The position numbers and the translations under genes were made by a program. Positions 10,663-21,958 of a stretch of DNA of 21,958 nt are shown piece by piece. The stretch covers positions 1 to 21,958 of IMG/VR virus record IMGVR_UViG_3300030520_000116. The stretch is one strand, 5' to 3'. The stretch's first letter is position 1, and each line of letters starts with the position of its first letter. The DNA comes from a virus. Under the pieces are notes generated by a model. It saw only the letters and a program-made list of their open reading frames with translations, did not search any database and was not told the origin of the DNA.

Positions 10663-12138
10663 TCAGTTCGACGAAGACGGCTCCACCGCCGCGTCGCCCT
10701 GTTCGCCGCCCGGCTCACCGGCCCCGGCCAGCGCCCGCTTCCGGGCGGCCGCTCGTTGCGCCAGGGTGTCGCGCTTCATCTGGAAGGCGGTGCGCCGTCC
10801 GATCAGCGATGCCGGCTTGGCGGTGCCCTGGGCCACCAGATACTTCCCATAGCTTTCGGTCAGCGACAGGTCGATCTGTTCGGCATTCTCCAGCAGACCG
10901 ATCGCCCGTGGCACTCCGGCTTCGAGCGTCAACAGGTCGATGTCGAGAGCCACCTCCAGGGCAGCCGCCCGGGCCGCGAGCGACGGATGTGTGTCGGTCG
11001 GATGCGGTTGATGCGTCGCGGCAATGGCCGCGATGAGCGTTTGTCCCGGAACTGTCGCTATGAGCTGCCGACCGGCCCCGGAAAAGGCCCGACCGATGTT
11101 GTCGACCGGCTGACGTTGGTTGAGTGCGGCGATGCTGGACACCATGACCTGCTGCCAGGCCTGATCGGTTGCGGCGGACTTGGCCAGCGCGCCGACCATG
11201 GCCCGGCTGCTGGAGAGGCTAGCACCGATCCGATCCGCTTCGATCTCGCGGGTGCGGCCGATCGCCCGTTCGGCCCGGGCGAAGCGGGACAGAGTAAATC
11301 CCAGCACGGCCCGGGCCGGCAGCAGCGCCAGATTATGGCTTCTGCCACCCTGGTCGGTGGCTTCCAACGCCTGCATCAAGCCCTGATAGACCGGCTGGAA
11401 GCGCAGGCTGTAGGCCGTATCGGCCTGGAAGAAATGCGCGAGCTCGTGGCCGACGACCGCATTGAACTCGTCTTCGGAGACCAGTTCCATAAGCGACGCC
11501 GACAGATACATGGTTTCGCCGGTGAGTCGCTCCTTCGATCCGACTAGGCGAATTCCCGCCGCGGTGACAAAAAAATTGGGCAGCAGCCCGAGAACGACAT
11601 GGTCCGGCACCCGGGCACCAATCCGCGTCGCGACCGTTCGGACCCGATGCCAAAGTCGCGGCTGGTCCACCTCTGAGACTTCGACGCCAACGATCGGCGA
11701 TGCCGCGGGTCGCACCGCCCGGAACACCGACTGCACGATCTCCCAGGCGCCGTATAGGGCACCGCCCGCGACCGGCAGAATCAAGCCGATGCTGACGGCA
11801 TGAATCAGCACGATTTCCAGCAGCGCCACGCCGCAGACGACGATCGCCGCCTGGGCGAGGACCAGCAGCGCCAGGATCAGGGCGACGAAGCGCACGAGAT
11901 GGCGAAACACGACGACCAGTCGCTCCCGCCTTTCGCCGCATACCAACGCCGCGAGCCACACGGACAGGACGAGCCCGCAACCGGCCACCGCGGCGAGGAC
12001 CGAGACGCATGCCAGGATCAGGGCAATCCCGAACATACCGAGCTTGAAACCGAGCGCATAGGAGGCCGCAAGACCGAAGCCAGGAATACCGAACAATATC
12101 AACAGAAACGCAAAGGTACGGCGGAGATTCGCAAGCAT
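10663..12138 (-). CDS. membrane-bound M48 family zinc metallopeptidase
   Basis: A 491-residue protein with an N-terminal membrane domain and a cytoplasmic or periplasmic peptidase domain. Hydrophobic helices lie at about 9-30, 34-58, 84-110 and 112-130. The zinc site is VVGHELAHFF, with H231, E232 and H235 forming HExxH. The third ligand is E298 in TREIEADRIGA, as in HtpX/Ste24-type M48 enzymes. The last 60 residues are polar and probably disordered. The ATG at 12138 has AAGG upstream. M48 enzymes cleave membrane or periplasmic proteins, often in envelope quality control. Nothing in the tail machinery is known to need one. It interrupts the conserved DUF2460-DUF2163 order and is flanked by gaps of 76 and 192 bases while its neighbours overlap. 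It therefore looks like an accessory (moron) gene. The function in the prophage is unknown. Confidence 0.9.
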   Translation of the reverse strand: MLANLRRTFAFLLILFGIPGFGLAASYALGFKLGMFGIALILACVSVLAAVAGCGLVLSVWLAALVCGERRERLVVVFRHLVRFVALILALLVLAQAAIVVCGVALLEIVLIHAVSIGLILPVAGGALYGAWEIVQSVFRAVRPAASPIVGVEVSEVDQPRLWHRVRTVATRIGARVPDHVVLGLLPNFFVTAAGIRLVGSKERLTGETMYLSASLMELVSEDEFNAVVGHELAHFFQADTAYSLRFQPVYQGLMQALEATDQGGRSHNLALLPARAVLGFTLSRFARAERAIGRTREIEADRIGASLSSSRAMVGALAKSAATDQAWQQVMVSSIAALNQRQPVDNIGRAFSGAGRQLIATVPGQTLIAAIAATHQPHPTDTHPSLAARAAALEVALDIDLLTLEAGVPRAIGLLENAEQIDLSLTESYGKYLVAQGTAKPASLIGRRTAFQMKRDTLAQRAAARKRALAGAGEPGGEQGDAAVEPSSSN

Positions 12139-16591: not shown

Positions 16592-16626
16592 GAAAAAGGC
16601 AGGCGGGCGACCCAAGGCCGCCCGCC
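16592..16626 (-). terminator. hairpin with U-tract before connector gene
   Basis: ggcgggcg (16602-16609) pairs perfectly with cgcccgcc (16619-16626) across a nine-base loop. On the minus strand the stem is followed after four bases by TTTTT (16597-16593) and then by the connector ribosome site. This looks like an intrinsic terminator or attenuator after the capsid gene. Confidence 0.7.
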
Positions 16627-16633
16627 GCCGCCG

Positions 16634-18109
16634 TCAGCCGTTGGAGATGTTGGTGATCATGCCGAACGCCGGCGGGAAGTAGTTCTGCAGCACGCCGTCG
16701 GCATAGATGCCGTACTCGTACTTGCGCGTCCGGCGCGGCCATTCGATCGCGAAGAAATCCTGCCGCATGCGCATCTGCAGCACGTTCGCCACGTTCGACA
16801 GCGGATAGGGAATGGTCGCGGTCGTGAACAGCACCGTGCCCGGCGGCATGTTCGGGTGCAGCCGGACCGGGATCGCCTGGGCCCCGTCCATCGAATATTT
16901 GTTGAGGTAGGACGTGACCAGATCGCCGCCCTTGATCTGGCCCTGATCGACGTTGATGACGAAGCGCTGGGCCGCTCCGGTCGTGGCCGACAGGACCTTG
17001 CGGGTGATGTTGCGCTGCTCCTGGCTCGACACCCAGATCGTGTCGGGCGCCAGGCGGTAATTGTCCCAGAAGCTCTGCAGCGCCTGATCGATCTCGACCA
17101 CGCCGCCGACGCCGTCCGCGGTCAGCGTCGCACCGTTCGCCAGCGTGTCGATGTAGGAGCCGCTGCCGGGCTGCAGGATCTGCGAGAACAGCCCGTCGAA
17201 GATCAGCCGGTTCTGGCTATGGTCGGCGGCGAACCCGGCCGTGGCCGGCTGCGCACCGGTGCCGGCCGGCGCCGTCAGCGTGACGGTCGCGACCGAGGTG
17301 ATCGCGGCCAGCTTCTCCGATCCCGCCGTCCCCAGGAACCAGGCATAGCCGAACGCGCCCGGCACCGGCGTCAGCGACGCGGTGACCGTCGAGCTCGCGC
17401 CGGTCGTGGCGATGGTGGCGTTGGCGGATTGCTGGGCCGTGCCCTGATTGACCTGCTCGGTCGTGCCATCGGCGAGCGTACGGGTGCCGGAAAGCGGCAG
17501 ACCGCCGGCAACCGAGGATGCCAGGAACCCCTCGTAGCTGAGCGCCACGGCGATGACGCTTTGGGTACCGGATGCGATCGTGCCACCGGAACCGGCCGTG
17601 GTCAGGCTGGGCGTCGGTGTCGTGCCCAGCGCCAGCGAGGTATTGGCGCCCAGCACGATCTTCTCTTCCTGGATCATCAGGGACTTGATCAGCCCCTCCA
17701 TGGTCCGGGCTTTCAGATCGTCGAAGCCGTCGGCGGCGTAGCTCGCCTCGAAGCTGGCGAAATCGTCGAAGCCGTAGCCGCGGTAGACCGCGTAATAGTC
17801 CTTGGTGCTGGTGATCAGCACCGGGCCGCGATTGCCCTCGCTGACGCCGAAGGTGGCGTTGCCGACATTGACGCCGGTGATGGCGCGCCAATTGGCCTGG
17901 ATGCCGCCGGACGCCGTGACGCGCGGGATCATGTTCCTGAGCGGCGTGATGACCGGCACCAGCGACTTCGCCGGCTTTTCCAGGTCGTACCAGGTGATGC
18001 CTGAGATCGGGTTCGTCGACTGCGTGAAGCTCTTGGTGAGGCTGCCGAACGGCATGGGCGTGGCCAGCGCCTCGCGGGTCAGGCTCAAGGTATCGTCGGT
18101 CGTGGTCAT
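16634..18109 (-). CDS. HK97-fold major capsid protein
   Basis: A 491-residue protein and the main head shell subunit. The ATG at 18109 (MTTTDDTLSL) is preferred to an upstream TTG because GAGGAAA lies seven bases before it. The segment GYGFDDFASFEASYAADGFD at about 111-130, followed by a long helix to about 155, and the C-terminal part from about 296 (RLIFDGLFSQ, later FFAIEWPRRTRKYEYGIYAD) fit capsid proteins of this phage group. Residues about 163-295 are Gly/Ser/Thr/Ala-rich and beta-like (GAFGYAWFLGTAGSEKLAAI). They look like an inserted surface domain. The N-terminus is short, without the long scaffolding delta domain of HK97, so scaffold function may be elsewhere, perhaps in the protease C-terminus. 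Hairpin terminators sit on both sides of the gene. Confidence 0.85.
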   Translation of the reverse strand: MTTTDDTLSLTREALATPMPFGSLTKSFTQSTNPISGITWYDLEKPAKSLVPVITPLRNMIPRVTASGGIQANWRAITGVNVGNATFGVSEGNRGPVLITSTKDYYAVYRGYGFDDFASFEASYAADGFDDLKARTMEGLIKSLMIQEEKIVLGANTSLALGTTPTPSLTTAGSGGTIASGTQSVIAVALSYEGFLASSVAGGLPLSGTRTLADGTTEQVNQGTAQQSANATIATTGASSTVTASLTPVPGAFGYAWFLGTAGSEKLAAITSVATVTLTAPAGTGAQPATAGFAADHSQNRLIFDGLFSQILQPGSGSYIDTLANGATLTADGVGGVVEIDQALQSFWDNYRLAPDTIWVSSQEQRNITRKVLSATTGAAQRFVINVDQGQIKGGDLVTSYLNKYSMDGAQAIPVRLHPNMPPGTVLFTTATIPYPLSNVANVLQMRMRQDFFAIEWPRRTRKYEYGIYADGVLQNYFPPAFGMITNISNG

Positions 18110-18125
18110 CGGGCGTTTCCTCAAT

Positions 18126-18150
18126 AAAAAACCCGGCTGAACAGCCGGGT
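18126..18150 (-). terminator. intrinsic terminator before capsid gene
   Basis: acccggct (18131-18138) and agccgggt (18143-18150) form a perfect 8-bp stem with a four-base loop. On the minus strand it is followed at once by TTTTTATT. This is a textbook intrinsic terminator between the protease and capsid genes, and it lies only 17 bases before the capsid start, next to the capsid ribosome site. Confidence 0.85.
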
Positions 18151-18181
18151 CGGACGAGCGGGGATGTCGGGAGGCGAGCGG

Positions 18182-18961
18182 TCAGAAGATGCGCGGCCGG
18201 CTGAGCGCCGCCTTGATCAGGCCGTTGGTGTCGCTGGGCTCCTCGGCCGGGTAGCGGCCCAGGTCCTCCTGCTTGGCGATCGCCCGCAGATTGCCGCGCG
18301 CCGGCGCCGGGTGATCCTCGATCCGGCCGATGCGGGCGGCGAGCCGGGCATAATCCTCGGTCAGGCGGCCGAGCGTGCGGGCCAGCTTCGCGACCGTGTC
18401 ATCGTCGTCGCCGTCGGTCGCGTCGTCGCCCGCGGCACAGCCGGAGCAGTCGGCGCCCAGCGAGGCGGCATGGTCATGGATCGCCTGGATGTGCGACAGG
18501 TCGGCCCTGGAATTGCGCCGCCCGACCTTGATGAGCGGGTCCGCCGACTTGAACATCTCGAACACCGCCTCCGGGTTCGACGGCCGGTCGACCAGGCTGA
18601 TTTCAGAGAGCGAGCAGCCGGTGATGACATGCTTCTGCATCGGGTCGCGCGCGGTGACCTGGCCCGCGACCGAGAAGCCGGAATAGACGCCTTCCTTGAC
18701 CTTGGCCCAGGCCTCGTCATCGACGATCTTGGCGGCGAGATAGAGGCCCTTGTCGTCGATGGTAGCGCCCTTGGCCTTACCCACGGCGGAGGGTTGATGC
18801 ATCTCGCGGATATTGCCGAAGCGCATGAAGCCGGGCAGCGCCGCCTCGATCGCATCGCGCTTGATGATCTCGCCCTGGCTGTCGAGCGCCTCGGTCGAGG
18901 CATAGCCGTAGACCATGCGCTGCTCCTCGTCGATCTTCTGCAGCGGCGCGTAGATCCTCAT
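18182..18961 (-). CDS. XkdF-like prohead protease, possibly fused to scaffold
   Basis: A 259-residue protein. The start at 18961 (MRIYAPLQKIDEEQRMVYGY) has a strong GGAGGAG upstream. Residues 1-140 match XkdF/Peptidase_S78_2: DSQGEIIKRDAIEAA near 27-41, H55 in IREMHQPSAVG, S97 in VYSGFSVAGQ, and the strand SLSEISLVDRPSNPEA at about 117-132. H55 and S97 are the likely catalytic pair. It would trim capsid or scaffold during head maturation. Residues about 145-235 are helical and charged. They contain a small Cys pair (GADCSGCAAG) and an acidic run, then a coiled-coil-like stretch (AKLARTLGRLTEDYARLAAR), which could serve as an internal scaffold. The usual upstream partner, a portal, is missing from the window. 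Confidence 0.83.
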   Translation of the reverse strand: MRIYAPLQKIDEEQRMVYGYASTEALDSQGEIIKRDAIEAALPGFMRFGNIREMHQPSAVGKAKGATIDDKGLYLAAKIVDDEAWAKVKEGVYSGFSVAGQVTARDPMQKHVITGCSLSEISLVDRPSNPEAVFEMFKSADPLIKVGRRNSRADLSHIQAIHDHAASLGADCSGCAAGDDATDGDDDDTVAKLARTLGRLTEDYARLAARIGRIEDHPAPARGNLRAIAKQEDLGRYPAEEPSDTNGLIKAALSRPRIF

Positions 18962-18990
18962 GGTTCGGAACTCCTCCGGATGTGGGAAAT

Positions 18991-19021
18991 AAAAAACCCG
19001 CCGCGGCAGGAGCCGGGCGGG
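18991..19021 (-). terminator. intrinsic terminator before protease gene
   Basis: On the minus strand CCCGCC pairs with GGCGGG, with an inner GGC-GCC pair around TCCT, followed by six T and ATTT. The structure ends about 30 bases before the protease start and directly precedes its GGAGGAG ribosome site. It can stop transcripts coming from upstream, or act as an attenuator in the protease leader. Confidence 0.8.
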
Positions 19022-19059
19022 CACAATTCGAACGATGGGTATTTTCTGTCAGATAACTC

Positions 19060-19101
19060 GGAACGGGTCAAGCAAAAAGTTCTTGTTTCGTTCCTATTAT
19101 A
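19060..19101 (-). promoter_or_regulatory. candidate promoter region upstream of protease
   Basis: The minus strand has a perfect TATAAT at 19101-19096 inside the small palindrome cctattatagg (19093-19103). No good -35 hexamer lies at normal distance. Just downstream, ggaacg (19060-19065) pairs with cgttcc (19089-19094), with an inner caag/cttg pair (19069-19072 with 19082-19085). This could be an operator or a leader hairpin. With the terminator at 18991-19021 it may form a promoter plus attenuator for the head operon. Support is weak. Confidence 0.28.
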
Positions 19102-19205
19102 GGTCTCCCGTCGACCCTCCTTGATCCTGACCGAAGACCATACCCCTTCCAAGGGGTGGTTCGGCGTGGCCGTCCAAAGGTACGCGTCCGGTGCGGAAGG
19201 TCCGC

Positions 19206-19640
19206 TCAGCGGTAGCTGCGTCGCATAGACAGGCCGCGTTTGACCACGAAGAACAACCCAATGGTTATGAGCGCGAGGGCGAGCCAGGCCTCGCACCAAA
19301 GCTCATACATTCCTGCGTCGTAGGCCGCCTCACCGTCGAGATGAAACACAGGCCCAACGATGTTCGGTATCGGGACGCGGAAGGCGGTATATGGCGGGAA
19401 ATGGCCCACGATAGTCGATGTCGAGAGTGCGAGTCCTGCACCCGTAGCGGCCCATCCAAGAATTCTCAATCGCGTCCGCCAGCGCTGAAGCATAGCCCAG
19501 CGCAATATGGCGCCCACGATCGCGGGCACGAGGAGGAGCTGATAGGGGTCGATTGCCGGGATTGGCACAAGGAGGAAAGGAACGAGCCCACATGCGGCCG
19601 CAATAGCCAACGCAAGCCAGTAGGCGACGCTATTGATCAA
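19206..19640 (-). CDS. hypothetical four-helix inner membrane protein
   Basis: A 144-residue protein with hydrophobic helices at about 5-27 (AYWLALAIAAACGLVPFLLV), 32-50 (YQLLLVPAIVGAILRWAM), 60-78 (ILGWAATGAGLALSTSTIV) and 117-133 (AWLALALITIGLFFVV). It ends in a positively charged tail. A loop between helices 3 and 4 holds PNIVGPVFHLDGEAAYDAGM. The frame begins with TTG at 19640, inside an old transposase remnant, and no good ribosome site is visible, so the start is uncertain. No family was recognised. It is not a normal member of a head module and may be a host or cargo gene left beside an insertion scar. The strong membrane pattern argues against it being a chance frame. Confidence 0.5.
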   Translation of the reverse strand: MINSVAYWLALAIAAACGLVPFLLVPIPAIDPYQLLLVPAIVGAILRWAMLQRWRTRLRILGWAATGAGLALSTSTIVGHFPPYTAFRVPIPNIVGPVFHLDGEAAYDAGMYELWCEAWLALALITIGLFFVVKRGLSMRRSYR

Positions 19641-19757
19641 TCCGTGACGTGTCGTCGCCCACTCTTTTTATCCAAGGCATGAGCTCGTCGATTCGGCTGA
19701 TCGGATGCCCTTCGGCGATCGACGAAGCACATCGCGCAGATAGGTGACGATATATCT
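19630..19757 (-). pseudogene. IS66-type transposase C-terminal remnant, frameshifted
   Basis: Read from 19757 on the minus strand the sequence gives YIVTYLRDVLRR. After loss of about one base it continues in another frame as IAEGHPISRIDELMPW, then to a stop at 19632-19630. Together these read YLRDVLRR-IAEGHPISRIDELMPW, the characteristic end of IS66 family transposases (usually HPINRIDELLPW). The frames meet around 19714-19724. No other part of the element and no terminal inverted repeats were identified. This is a decayed fragment, recognised by eye from about 28 residues. Confidence 0.65.
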
Positions 19758-19813
19758 AGTTTGGCAGCGCTAGGCTAACGCCAAAGCTAACGAACAGGTC
19801 GCCGCTCAAAATT

Positions 19814-19856
19814 CATCCTTGCATTTACGGAATATAATTCCATAAATGCAAGGATG
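19814..19856. promoter_or_regulatory. 43-bp near-perfect palindrome at ATPase start
   Basis: The arms 19814-19827 and 19843-19856 are perfect 14-bp reverse complements. An inner pair, ggaat (19829-19833) with attcc (19837-19841), surrounds ATA. Only 19828/19842 mismatch. The centre includes a perfect TATAAT (19833-19838) on the plus strand, and the right arm ends in the ATPase start codon. A TSS set by that box would leave a leader of only about ten bases. The likely role is an operator for autoregulation. Confidence 0.8.
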
Positions 19857-21017
19857 ATAGAGCGAAAAATCGAGCCCCATCTCATCGAACTGCTGGATCG
19901 ATCGCCCGCCGTCGCACTGCTCGGGCCGCGGCAGGTCGGCAAGACGACGCTGGCACTCGACGTCGCCGAGGTCCGTCCGTCGATCTATCTCGATCTCGAA
20001 TCCGACAGCGATCGGGCCAAACTTGCCGATCCCGAACTCTATCTGGCGGGCCACGCCGACCAGCTGGTCATCCTGGACGAGGTTCATCGTCTGCCGGACT
20101 TGTTTCGCGCGCTTCGCGGCATCATCGATCGTGGCCGCCGGAGCGGACAAGGCCTGTCGCGCTTCCTGCTGCTGGGATCCGCGTCGATCGATCTGTTGAA
20201 GCAATCGGGCGAATCGCTCGCCGGCCGCATTGCCTATCTCGAGCTCGGCCCGGTCGGCATCGCCGAGATCGACGCGGGCCAACGGGAAACCCTATGGGTC
20301 CGCGGCGGCTTCCCCGACAGCCTGCTGGCGCAGAGCGACGCCGACAGCGTCCGCTGGCGGCGCGATTTCATCCGCACCTATCTGGAGCGTGACATTCCGC
20401 AATTCGGCCCCCGGATCGCGGCCGAAACGCTCCGGCGGTTTTGGACCATGCTCGCCCATCATCACGGCGGCCTGCTCAACGCGGCCGAACTCGCACGCGG
20501 GCTCGGCGTCGATGGCAAGACGGTCGCGGCCTATCTGGATCTGCTGGTCGACCTGCTGCTGGTCCGGCGCCTGCCTTCCTGGCACGCGAATGTCGGCAAG
20601 CGGCTGGTCAAGTCGCCCAAGGTCTATGTGCGCGATAGCGGACTGGTGCATGCGCTGCTCGGGCTCGGCGATCTGGAAAGCCTACTGGGTCATCCGGTGG
20701 TCGGCACCAGTTGGGAAGGCTTCGTGATTGAGAACGCGATCGCCGCCGCACCGGCCGGAACCGAAGCCTCATTTTATCGAACCGCGGCCGGTGCCGAGAT
20801 CGATCTGCTGCTGACCCTGCCCGGCGGCCGCCTCTGGGCCATCGAGATCAAGCGCAGCCTGGCGCCCAAGGTGGAAAAGGGCTTCCACCTTGCTTGCGAC
20901 GACCTGAAACCCGAGCGCCGGTTCGTCGTCTATCCGGGAACCGAACGTTTCCCACTGAAGGGCGACACCGAGGCAATCGGTTTGGATGCTTTCATCAAAA
21001 CCGTGTCGGCGGCGTAG
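19854..21017 (+). CDS. AAA_14/DUF4143 family ATPase with nuclease-like C-terminus
   Basis: A 387-residue protein. The N-terminal ATPase domain has Walker A GPRQVGKTT (24-32) and Walker B LVILDEVHR (71-79), then the sensor-like FLLLGSASIDLL. A winged-helix-like region follows (LLNAAELARGLGVDGKTVAA). The C-terminal DUF4143 part has FYRTAAGAEIDLLL and WAIEIKRS. Their spacing (E315/D317, then E331-I-K333) resembles the core of PD-(D/E)XK nucleases. Members are widespread, often single genes with unclear roles, and are often near mobile elements. The ATG at 19854 is the right end of a long palindrome and lacks a properly spaced ribosome site, so translation may be almost leaderless. It is the only clear plus-strand gene in the window and is not a phage structural gene. 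Confidence 0.88.
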   Translation: MIERKIEPHLIELLDRSPAVALLGPRQVGKTTLALDVAEVRPSIYLDLESDSDRAKLADPELYLAGHADQLVILDEVHRLPDLFRALRGIIDRGRRSGQGLSRFLLLGSASIDLLKQSGESLAGRIAYLELGPVGIAEIDAGQRETLWVRGGFPDSLLAQSDADSVRWRRDFIRTYLERDIPQFGPRIAAETLRRFWTMLAHHHGGLLNAAELARGLGVDGKTVAAYLDLLVDLLLVRRLPSWHANVGKRLVKSPKVYVRDSGLVHALLGLGDLESLLGHPVVGTSWEGFVIENAIAAAPAGTEASFYRTAAGAEIDLLLTLPGGRLWAIEIKRSLAPKVEKGFHLACDDLKPERRFVVYPGTERFPLKGDTEAIGLDAFIKTVSAA

Positions 21018-21061
21018 GTTGTCCTTCTCGGCAGATGATTTCCTGTGTCCTTCGAGAACGG

Positions 21062-21481
21062 TCAGTGCGCTGAGCCAACGAAATCGAAACCACCGACCGC
21101 TAGCTTTTCGAGAAAATCGGCCACGGACGCGGCCAGTTCCCGACGCTCATGAAGCAGGTACACCGGCAGATTCGCGTTATTCGGGCACCACATGACGAAA
21201 TCCGAGTCGATCAATAAGTCGCCAAAAACAGCATATATTTTATCATCCATCTTCGATTCCAGAGATTTTTCCTGAACTATTCTGTCAATAGACCATAAAG
21301 AAATCTGACTTTTCTGGTCACATCCTTCAAATCCATTGAATGTCGAATACAGATCCAAAATATACTTGTCCACTTTCCCCTCACCGACGCTGGCAAGCCT
21401 CGTCAGTTCGGCCTGACTGGCTGGAGGTGATAGCTTCGTCTCCCGCGCCAAGAGCGCCGTTTGTACTTGCAGTGCTTCCAT
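21062..21481 (-). CDS. SUKH/SMI1-KNR4-like immunity protein
   Basis: A 139-residue protein starting one base after the stop of the upstream toxin-like gene, with GGAG from that gene's end as ribosome site. The pattern ILDLYSTFNGFEG, then ISLWSIDRI, then VFGDLLIDSDFVMW and ELAASVADFLEKL follows the order of conserved segments in SMI1/KNR4 (SUKH) proteins, which neutralise polymorphic toxins by binding them. Local GC is low: 21 of 60 bases at 21241-21300 by hand count, against well over 60 percent in the phage genes. That suggests recent arrival. The family match is by eye, and the immunity role follows mainly from the paired arrangement. Confidence 0.6.
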   Translation of the reverse strand: MEALQVQTALLARETKLSPPASQAELTRLASVGEGKVDKYILDLYSTFNGFEGCDQKSQISLWSIDRIVQEKSLESKMDDKIYAVFGDLLIDSDFVMWCPNNANLPVYLLHERRELAASVADFLEKLAVGGFDFVGSAH

Positions 21482-21482
21482 C

Positions 21483-21958
21483 TCAGCGTCTCCGCATTTG
21501 ATCCAGAATAGTTTGAATAGCTTGCCGTCGCAGGGCTTGGGTTCCGATCTTGTCGATTCCTCGCTCGATGGCTTGCTGAGCGATCTGTTGGTAACTCTGC
21601 AGAGTTTGTATTGTTACCTCGGGTGGAAGATCCACGGAACCCTGGGCGGCCCGATCCAACAGACTTTGGGCCCCCGCTGGGCCTTGGCCAAACAGCTCCC
21701 GTAGGCCCGCTCTTTCGGCGAGCGAAAGTATGGGCGCGCTATCGACCGCCACCGGAGCCAGCAAACTCGCCGCCCTGACAGCCAACGGAGTGGCAACCGA
21801 CACCGCCGCCCCGATAACCGCCTCTTTGCCCGTCATCGTCCCGTAAGTGGTCGGGCTCATGCCGTCGTAGTAGGGCACCGGTGTGTTCCAAAAGCTGTAC
21901 CCGTCGCTCTTGCCGGCGGCTCCATCCGGACTCCATCGCCCATCCTGGTCACGTGCCT
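21483..21958 (-). CDS. C-terminus of large toxin-like protein, enters from right edge
   Basis: The frame is open from the right edge to the stop at 21483, giving 158 residues. It first reads RDQDGRWSPDGAAGKSDGYS and VPYYDGMSPTTYG, then a hydrophobic Ala/Val segment (AVIGAAVSVATPLAVRAASL), then a helical end (TIQTLQSYQQIAQQAIERGI and ALRRQAIQTILDQMRRR). This layout, a hydrophobic linker before a small terminal domain and an immunity-like gene one base later, is that of polymorphic toxins such as Rhs or contact-dependent systems. A GTG inside the frame (21878) could be mistaken for a start, but the coding pattern continues upstream. The toxic activity cannot be named from what is visible. It could also be the tail of another large secreted or phage protein. 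Confidence 0.6.
   Translation of the reverse strand, partial: ARDQDGRWSPDGAAGKSDGYSFWNTPVPYYDGMSPTTYGTMTGKEAVIGAAVSVATPLAVRAASLLAPVAVDSAPILSLAERAGLRELFGQGPAGAQSLLDRAAQGSVDLPPEVTIQTLQSYQQIAQQAIERGIDKIGTQALRRQAIQTILDQMRRR

Follow-up and report, generated by a model that had tools for sequence, protein, structure and literature searches.

In the Q systems of lambda and phage 21, late genes are served by the late promoter PR' and the terminator tR', and lambda Q binds between the -35 and -10 elements of the promoter. Promoter spacers normally drift freely. GafA of Rhodobacter and its homologues are annotated as DUF6456 (PMC9638019), and Caulobacter GafZ is the counterpart of the C-terminal half of GafA. 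This anti-terminator depends on a site lying between -35 and -10 and mediates terminator read-through in the gene transfer agent (GTA) cluster (PMC11150451). Binding of RNA polymerase and Nus factors, together with anti-termination, has been shown for Caulobacter GafZ alone (PMC11150451). The Caulobacter cluster, which requires GafY and IHF, has one late promoter and, behind its first gene, a terminator, terGTA, formed by 150-bp repeats (PMC11150451), and gafYZ is repressed by the HTH+S24 protein RogA (PMC9632790).

The locus described here shares with the Caulobacter GTA (PMC11150451) a regulator of the GafA/GafZ family (DUF6456), a promoter whose -35/-10 spacer contains a conserved block, terminator-like signals within the capsid cluster, a RogA-type HTH+S24 repressor beside or near the regulator, and RcGTA-like tail genes. 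It differs from the Caulobacter GTA in having several late promoters, each with a short leader hairpin, and LexA-type boxes, and the sequence of the spacer block and the head genes are also distinct. As for Q of lambda and phage 21, a putative anti-terminator gene lies just 5' of a late promoter, followed by a spacer element, a short terminator-ended leader and late genes, whereas the protein family is unrelated, three operons each have a copy of the unit in front of them, and a search for a pause element found none.

Hairpins within the head-tail operon

The window, by which we mean the whole stretch of DNA analysed (21,958 nucleotides, IMG/VR record IMGVR_UViG_3300030520_000116), is a 22-kb fragment that ends inside the portal/cargo region, short of the terminase region. 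Its only close relatives by DNA in the phage record collection are two Brevundimonas phages. The minus strand carries, in order, protease, putative capsid, connector and tail genes, with the following elements at the start of the operon:

19079-19093, minus strand: LexA/SOS-type box GAACGAAACAAGAAC (GAAC-N7-GAAC), without mismatch in 9 of the 11 leader copies
19043-19071, minus strand: promoter-like unit, with TTGACC at 19071-19066, spacer TCCGA-N3-ATCTG at 19062-19050 and a weak putative -10, CAGAAA, at 19048-19043 (11 copies aligned)
19022-18996 (18990-19022 with T-tract), minus strand: hairpin 1, -22.8 kcal/mol, bulged stem CCCGCCCGGC/GCCGCGGCGGG, a leader terminator-like element
18182-18961, minus strand: head maturation protease gene, start 18961 (Pfam Peptidase_S78_2, 8e-9, also Peptidase_S78; PHROG head maturation protease)
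18151-18130 (18126-18151 with T-tract), minus strand: hairpin 2, -15.5 kcal/mol, about 20 nt 5' of the capsid start
16634-18109, minus strand: putative major capsid protein gene, start 18109 (phrog_13692, E 8e-130, PHROG function unknown)
16629-16598 (16592-16629 with T-tract), minus strand: hairpin 3, -28.7 kcal/mol, directly 3' of the capsid stop codon
16029-16577, minus strand: head-tail adaptor (connector) gene, start 16577 (Pfam Phage_connect_1, 1.4e-9; phrog_442 head-tail adaptor, 4e-36)

The putative capsid gene is placed between the protease and head-tail adaptor genes, and one of its matches, in Alicyclobacillus phage MMB025, carries the label major head protein. Profile matches in the cluster identify RcGTA-like tail genes (DUF2460, Gp84_N/BR0599, Phage-tail_3 and Rcc01698_C), and an NlpC/P60 match stays below its cut-off.

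A sequence-only reading of the window had placed terminator-like hairpins directly before three successive head genes, in an operon whose other genes overlap by four bases. Such overlaps are indeed present (for example 16029/16032, 15610/15613 and 12805/12808), and the three minus-strand hairpins are confirmed at positions within a few bases of those proposed, each followed by a T-run, a ribosome site and the start codon of the protease (18961), capsid (18109) or connector gene (16577). A GC-rich stem with a T-run immediately after it, the form of an intrinsic terminator, is found at all three sites. Judged by their sequence, hairpins 1-3 are real terminator-like signals, at which RNA polymerase would be predicted to stop. 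The proposal of a single repeated layout fares less well: all three hairpins carry a T-run and a ribosome site, but hairpin 1 is part of a promoter-leader unit repeated at operon starts, whereas hairpins 2 and 3 are intercistronic and show no sequence relationship, and the closest relatives do not conserve hairpin 3.

Counts alone make the hairpins only partly exceptional. In dinucleotide shuffles of the whole window, with sites followed by at least four T considered, 0.36 sites of -22 kcal/mol or below are expected, and the window has three, including an unrelated palindrome. For sites of -15.5 kcal/mol or below the expectation is 3.3, and support for hairpin 2 therefore comes from position and conservation rather than rarity. 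A simple terminator scan of the window returned 11 sites against 9.5 expected, and a general enrichment of terminators was rejected as not significant relative to the shuffles. An Rfam search across the window gave no match of interest.

A search with the capsid protein gathered relatives from 68 viral and 7 genome loci; those with a named source are mostly Rhodospirillales. Conservation, on which the sequence-only reading had made its proposal depend, extends to hairpin 1 (8 of 8) and hairpin 2 (9 of 9) in close relatives with sequence; hairpin 3 is not kept, being absent from L009, L073 and L074 (75-79% capsid identity), where the connector gene begins directly after the capsid gene. The close group for hairpin 2 comprises the window, L072, L006, L008, L046, L009, L073, L074 and G284. 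Over five stem types, two of which come from the more distant L010 and L050 with the register set by hand, changes on both sides of the stem are seen at 7 of 7 pairs and 35 of 35 cells are paired, a result matched by 0 of 5000 column shuffles, while the tails remain T-rich. Such stem changes with a retained T-run are what selection for a terminator would be expected to look like. As a family-wide trait the pre-capsid hairpin was rejected (6 across 49 distinct relatives, 2.85 expected), and it marks the close group together with L010 and L050. In these two loci hairpin 2 is present, yet the protease gene follows another gene and has no leader unit.

A repeated promoter-leader unit

Hairpin 1 forms the end of a conserved unit of ~95 bp that consists of the LexA-type box, TTGACC, a spacer block, the bulged hairpin and the T-tract; the stretch 5' of the hairpin is conserved and non-coding. 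Eleven copies were aligned (window, two from G001, three from G284, and L006, L091, L081, L073 and L074), and the copies share GAAC-N7-GAAC, TTGACC, TTCCGANNNATCTG, a weak -10, CCCATCGTTCGAATT, the stem CCCGCCCGGC/GCCGCGGCGGG, a variable loop and a T-run. The stem is almost invariant across the 11 copies, making a paired-change test uninformative. The -10 of the near group, CAGAAA, is weak and its assignment tentative; from the putative transcript start, the leader would run for ~15 nt to hairpin 1.

Most copies precede the protease gene, where they sit 3' of a variable cargo stretch in the window and its relatives, and others precede terminase small subunit-like genes (G001 C42, G284 294200) and a portal gene (G284 301554). 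The names terminase and portal rest on sequence reading and gene order, neither protein having reached a Pfam family. Since copies lie before terminase, portal and protease genes, the leader unit is best read as an operon start repeated within the cluster.

The cargo between portal and protease differs in each relative (window 19100-21958; L072 1-3000; L074 600-3700; L241), and several of its genes look by eye like immunity or toxin-immunity pairs. A plus-strand AAA_14/DUF4143 ATPase gene has a near-perfect 45-bp palindrome of about -30 kcal/mol at its start (window 19800-19870).

Beyond the perfect boxes, a tenth leader copy has a LexA-type box one mismatch off, and the boxes of L074 and L081 are shifted and in the opposite orientation. 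The recA boxes of G001 and G284, GTTCTTATTGTGTTC and GTTCCTATTGTGTTC, are of the type matching the leader box, which carries the operator of the alphaproteobacterial LexA regulon (GTTC-N7-GTTC, as in host recA). LexA would thus probably repress transcription at the leader box. While the direct repeat is the same as that of the recA promoters in G001 and G284, the boxes here lie directly at late structural promoters and not just at repair genes or an antirepressor. Of 9 distant relatives, 7 have a perfect LexA-type box 5' of DUF6456.

The bulged hairpin was also considered as a general host terminator and rejected, as it is carried by 2 of 289 genomes of the class of G001, with all three copies in this cluster. 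A tRNA-like attachment site, considered for the resemblance of GTTCGAATT to a T-loop, was discarded, since L046, L073 and L074 do not retain these letters. A pattern search of GC-rich viral contigs, which speaks to recurrence and not to frequency, placed the same bulged hairpin with a T-run in many contigs among the matches listed, often, again among the matches listed, 5' of terminase, HNH, portal or holin genes. The hairpin and a terminase gene lie 3' of a DUF6456-like gene in viral contig L146, with a poor T-run, and the hairpin alone follows such a gene in L111/L203. In L123, a NusG-domain gene is followed by the bulged hairpin and a terminase gene, and in L079, L155 and L183 GTTC-N7-GTTC stands directly before TTGACG, the bulged hairpin and then a gene at the terminase position. 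We note that L109 and L144 encode phrog_9306 (PHROG function unknown) directly 5' of the leader hairpin; by position, these proteins are candidate anti-terminators.

The DUF6456 gene and the spacer block

In G001 and G284, a DUF6456 gene is located immediately 5' of the terminase leader copy. A divergent HTH+S24 repressor gene accompanies it, which parallels the repression of gafYZ by RogA in Caulobacter (PMC9632790). The two DUF6456 proteins score 27.7 and 27.6 bits against Pfam PF20057 (DUF6456; curated cut-off 26.3), and among 14 control genomes Caulobacter was the sole match. In the eight genomes first reached, the gene was present in 4 of 4 with the leader unit and in 0 of 4 capsid relatives without it. 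Across 39 genomes of the family, 16 have both the capsid gene and DUF6456, 2 the capsid gene only, 5 DUF6456 only and 16 neither (Fisher p = 7e-5, with related genomes counted as independent). The linkage is not exclusive, because the five genomes carry DUF6456 without this capsid gene. In the distant relatives G313, G298 and G301, DUF6456 is encoded 10-16 kb upstream of the capsid gene, with both genes sharing one strand. The window ends before the region where its own DUF6456 gene would be visible, and we infer this gene from relatives with capsid identity of up to 96%.

In G002 C422 and G003 C100 (L262, L263), a DUF6456 gene and an S24-type repressor gene are found apart from the capsid contig; like gafYZ of Caulobacter, these detached genes are flanked by host genes, the same ones in each of the two genomes.

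In distant relatives (~40% capsid identity), a clear promoter of the form TTGACA-AATCCGGATCGATCTGA-TACAAG lies directly behind the DUF6456 gene or overlaps its end. These TTGACA-TCCGGATCGATCTG-TACAAG promoters are homologous to the promoter unit of the near group, and their spacer is recognisably the near-group block TCCGANNNATCTG. Within 4.4 million strand-bases of fetched DNA, the promoter pattern returned these sites and one other (L134). Hairpin 1 is generally lacking right after the promoter in distant relatives that have the DUF6456 promoter, and the letters of the spacer block are unlike the Caulobacter GafZ site (GCGCCCG-CTGGCGC). The spacer is retained at the position bound by GafZ and lambda Q, in a part of the promoter that normally drifts, and conservation of the block therefore points to a candidate loading site for an anti-terminator.

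Probable read-through of the hairpins

Hairpin 2 is ~20 bases from the capsid start, which leaves no room for a promoter, and transcripts of the capsid gene must therefore pass hairpin 2; thus, read-through is needed in any model. The sequence-only reading had expected transcripts to be cut off between the head genes unless antitermination acts. This condition gains indirect support from the linked DUF6456 gene and from the spacer block at the place used by GafZ and lambda Q, with read-through itself the predicted outcome. We consider it fairly probable that a GafZ-like protein loads at the leader promoters after DNA damage, enabling polymerase to pass hairpins 1-3. In the quiet state, LexA and the neighbouring S24-type repressor would silence both the promoters and the regulator, and leaky transcripts would end at hairpin 1, or else at hairpin 2 or 3. 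Upon DNA damage, the DUF6456 protein would, like GafZ and lambda Q, board RNA polymerase at the spacer block. Polymerase modified in this way would read past hairpins 1, 2 and 3, such that the entire head-tail operon is made. As in late operons of this kind, G001, G284 and several distant relatives have a putative anti-terminator gene directly 5' of the late promoter, and a terminator-like element, hairpin 1, lies 3' of the late promoter in near relatives. Several observations weigh against anti-termination by a GafZ-like protein, namely the poor -10 of the near group, the absence of hairpin 1 in distant relatives, the lack of conservation of hairpin 3, the presence of hairpin 2 without a leader unit in L010/L050, the dissimilarity of the spacer to the Caulobacter site and the five genomes with DUF6456 but not the capsid gene.

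The other option in the sequence-only reading, a stepwise adjustment of protein ratios, is less likely: it finds no support in these data, and termination ahead of the most needed protein would count against it. In this rival account the hairpins would be partial terminators that need no dedicated anti-terminator; a constant fraction of polymerase would read on at each of them, which would set the protease:capsid:connector ratio. The usual place for such a step-down is after the capsid gene, as with the T7 terminator after gene 10, and post-capsid hairpins are widespread at this place: 19 of 53 distinct loci have one where shuffles predict 2.7, about seven times fewer (coding controls, 14 of 216). 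The T7-type position is that of hairpin 3 and, in many relatives, of their own post-capsid hairpins, whereas hairpin 2 precedes the capsid gene and the promoters here are of the host polymerase type. Partial termination at hairpin 2 would reduce the most needed protein, and neither the location of hairpin 1 inside a promoter unit, nor the DUF6456 link, nor the conserved spacer block is explained in this way, making partial terminators a rather unlikely account. A role in RNA processing or stability, with the hairpins protecting 3' or 5' message ends or shielding the ribosome site rather than terminating, would suit their placement ~20-40 nt 5' of each start codon and the start of hairpin 1 ~14 nt after the putative transcript start, but would not need the T-run that hairpin 2 keeps while its stem changes; we regard such a role as distinctly unlikely.

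That the hairpins arose by chance in GC-rich DNA, as might be thought from the weaker terminator-like sites being as numerous as in shuffles, is highly improbable given their position, conservation and paired changes; chance is refuted for hairpins 1 and 2 and is possible for hairpin 3 only. A cos-like DNA packaging site containing hairpin 1 is scarcely credible despite the GC-rich dyad 5' of terminase genes in several contigs, because the unit recurs three times in one cluster, before portal and protease genes as well and always with T-run and promoter boxes, and similar hairpins lie elsewhere 5' of holin and other genes.

Returning to anti-termination by a GafZ-like protein, we tentatively raise the possibility of a wider scheme, in which these phage-like clusters, possibly gene transfer agents, have packaging, portal and head operons each behind an SOS promoter and a leader terminator, with a single GafZ-type anti-terminator, encoded in cis, to release them all. 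In that scheme, the bulged GCCCGCCCGGC/GCCGCGGCGGG hairpin would be a recurrent leader terminator of unrelated phages with different anti-terminators (DUF6456, NusG-like, phrog_9306). If so, anti-termination of the GafZ type, described in a single domesticated gene transfer agent, would extend to a broader phage-like family and be coupled with LexA acting directly on structural genes, and a reason would be given for terminators within capsid operons. The promoter block, leader hairpin and DUF6456 gene would furthermore provide short portable pieces with which to ask how GafZ works, a question left open previously (PMC11150451), and phrog_9306 proteins would be named as candidate anti-terminators by position.

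No integrase was recognised by eye among the called ORFs of the G001 and G284 clusters. The clusters in G001 C140 and G284 C7 have the same host flanks (TPR protein, response regulator, ECF-type sigma factor and FAD oxidoreductase), which suggests long-term residence as in gene transfer agents. The G284 cluster (C7:297957-310469; L249, L250) is broken, with an inversion that splits the portal gene beside a transposase-like gene, and no tail genes remain between the capsid gene and the last gene. In the window, the tail module includes a Peptidase_M48 gene flanked by DUF2460 and baseplate hub genes (10663-12138).
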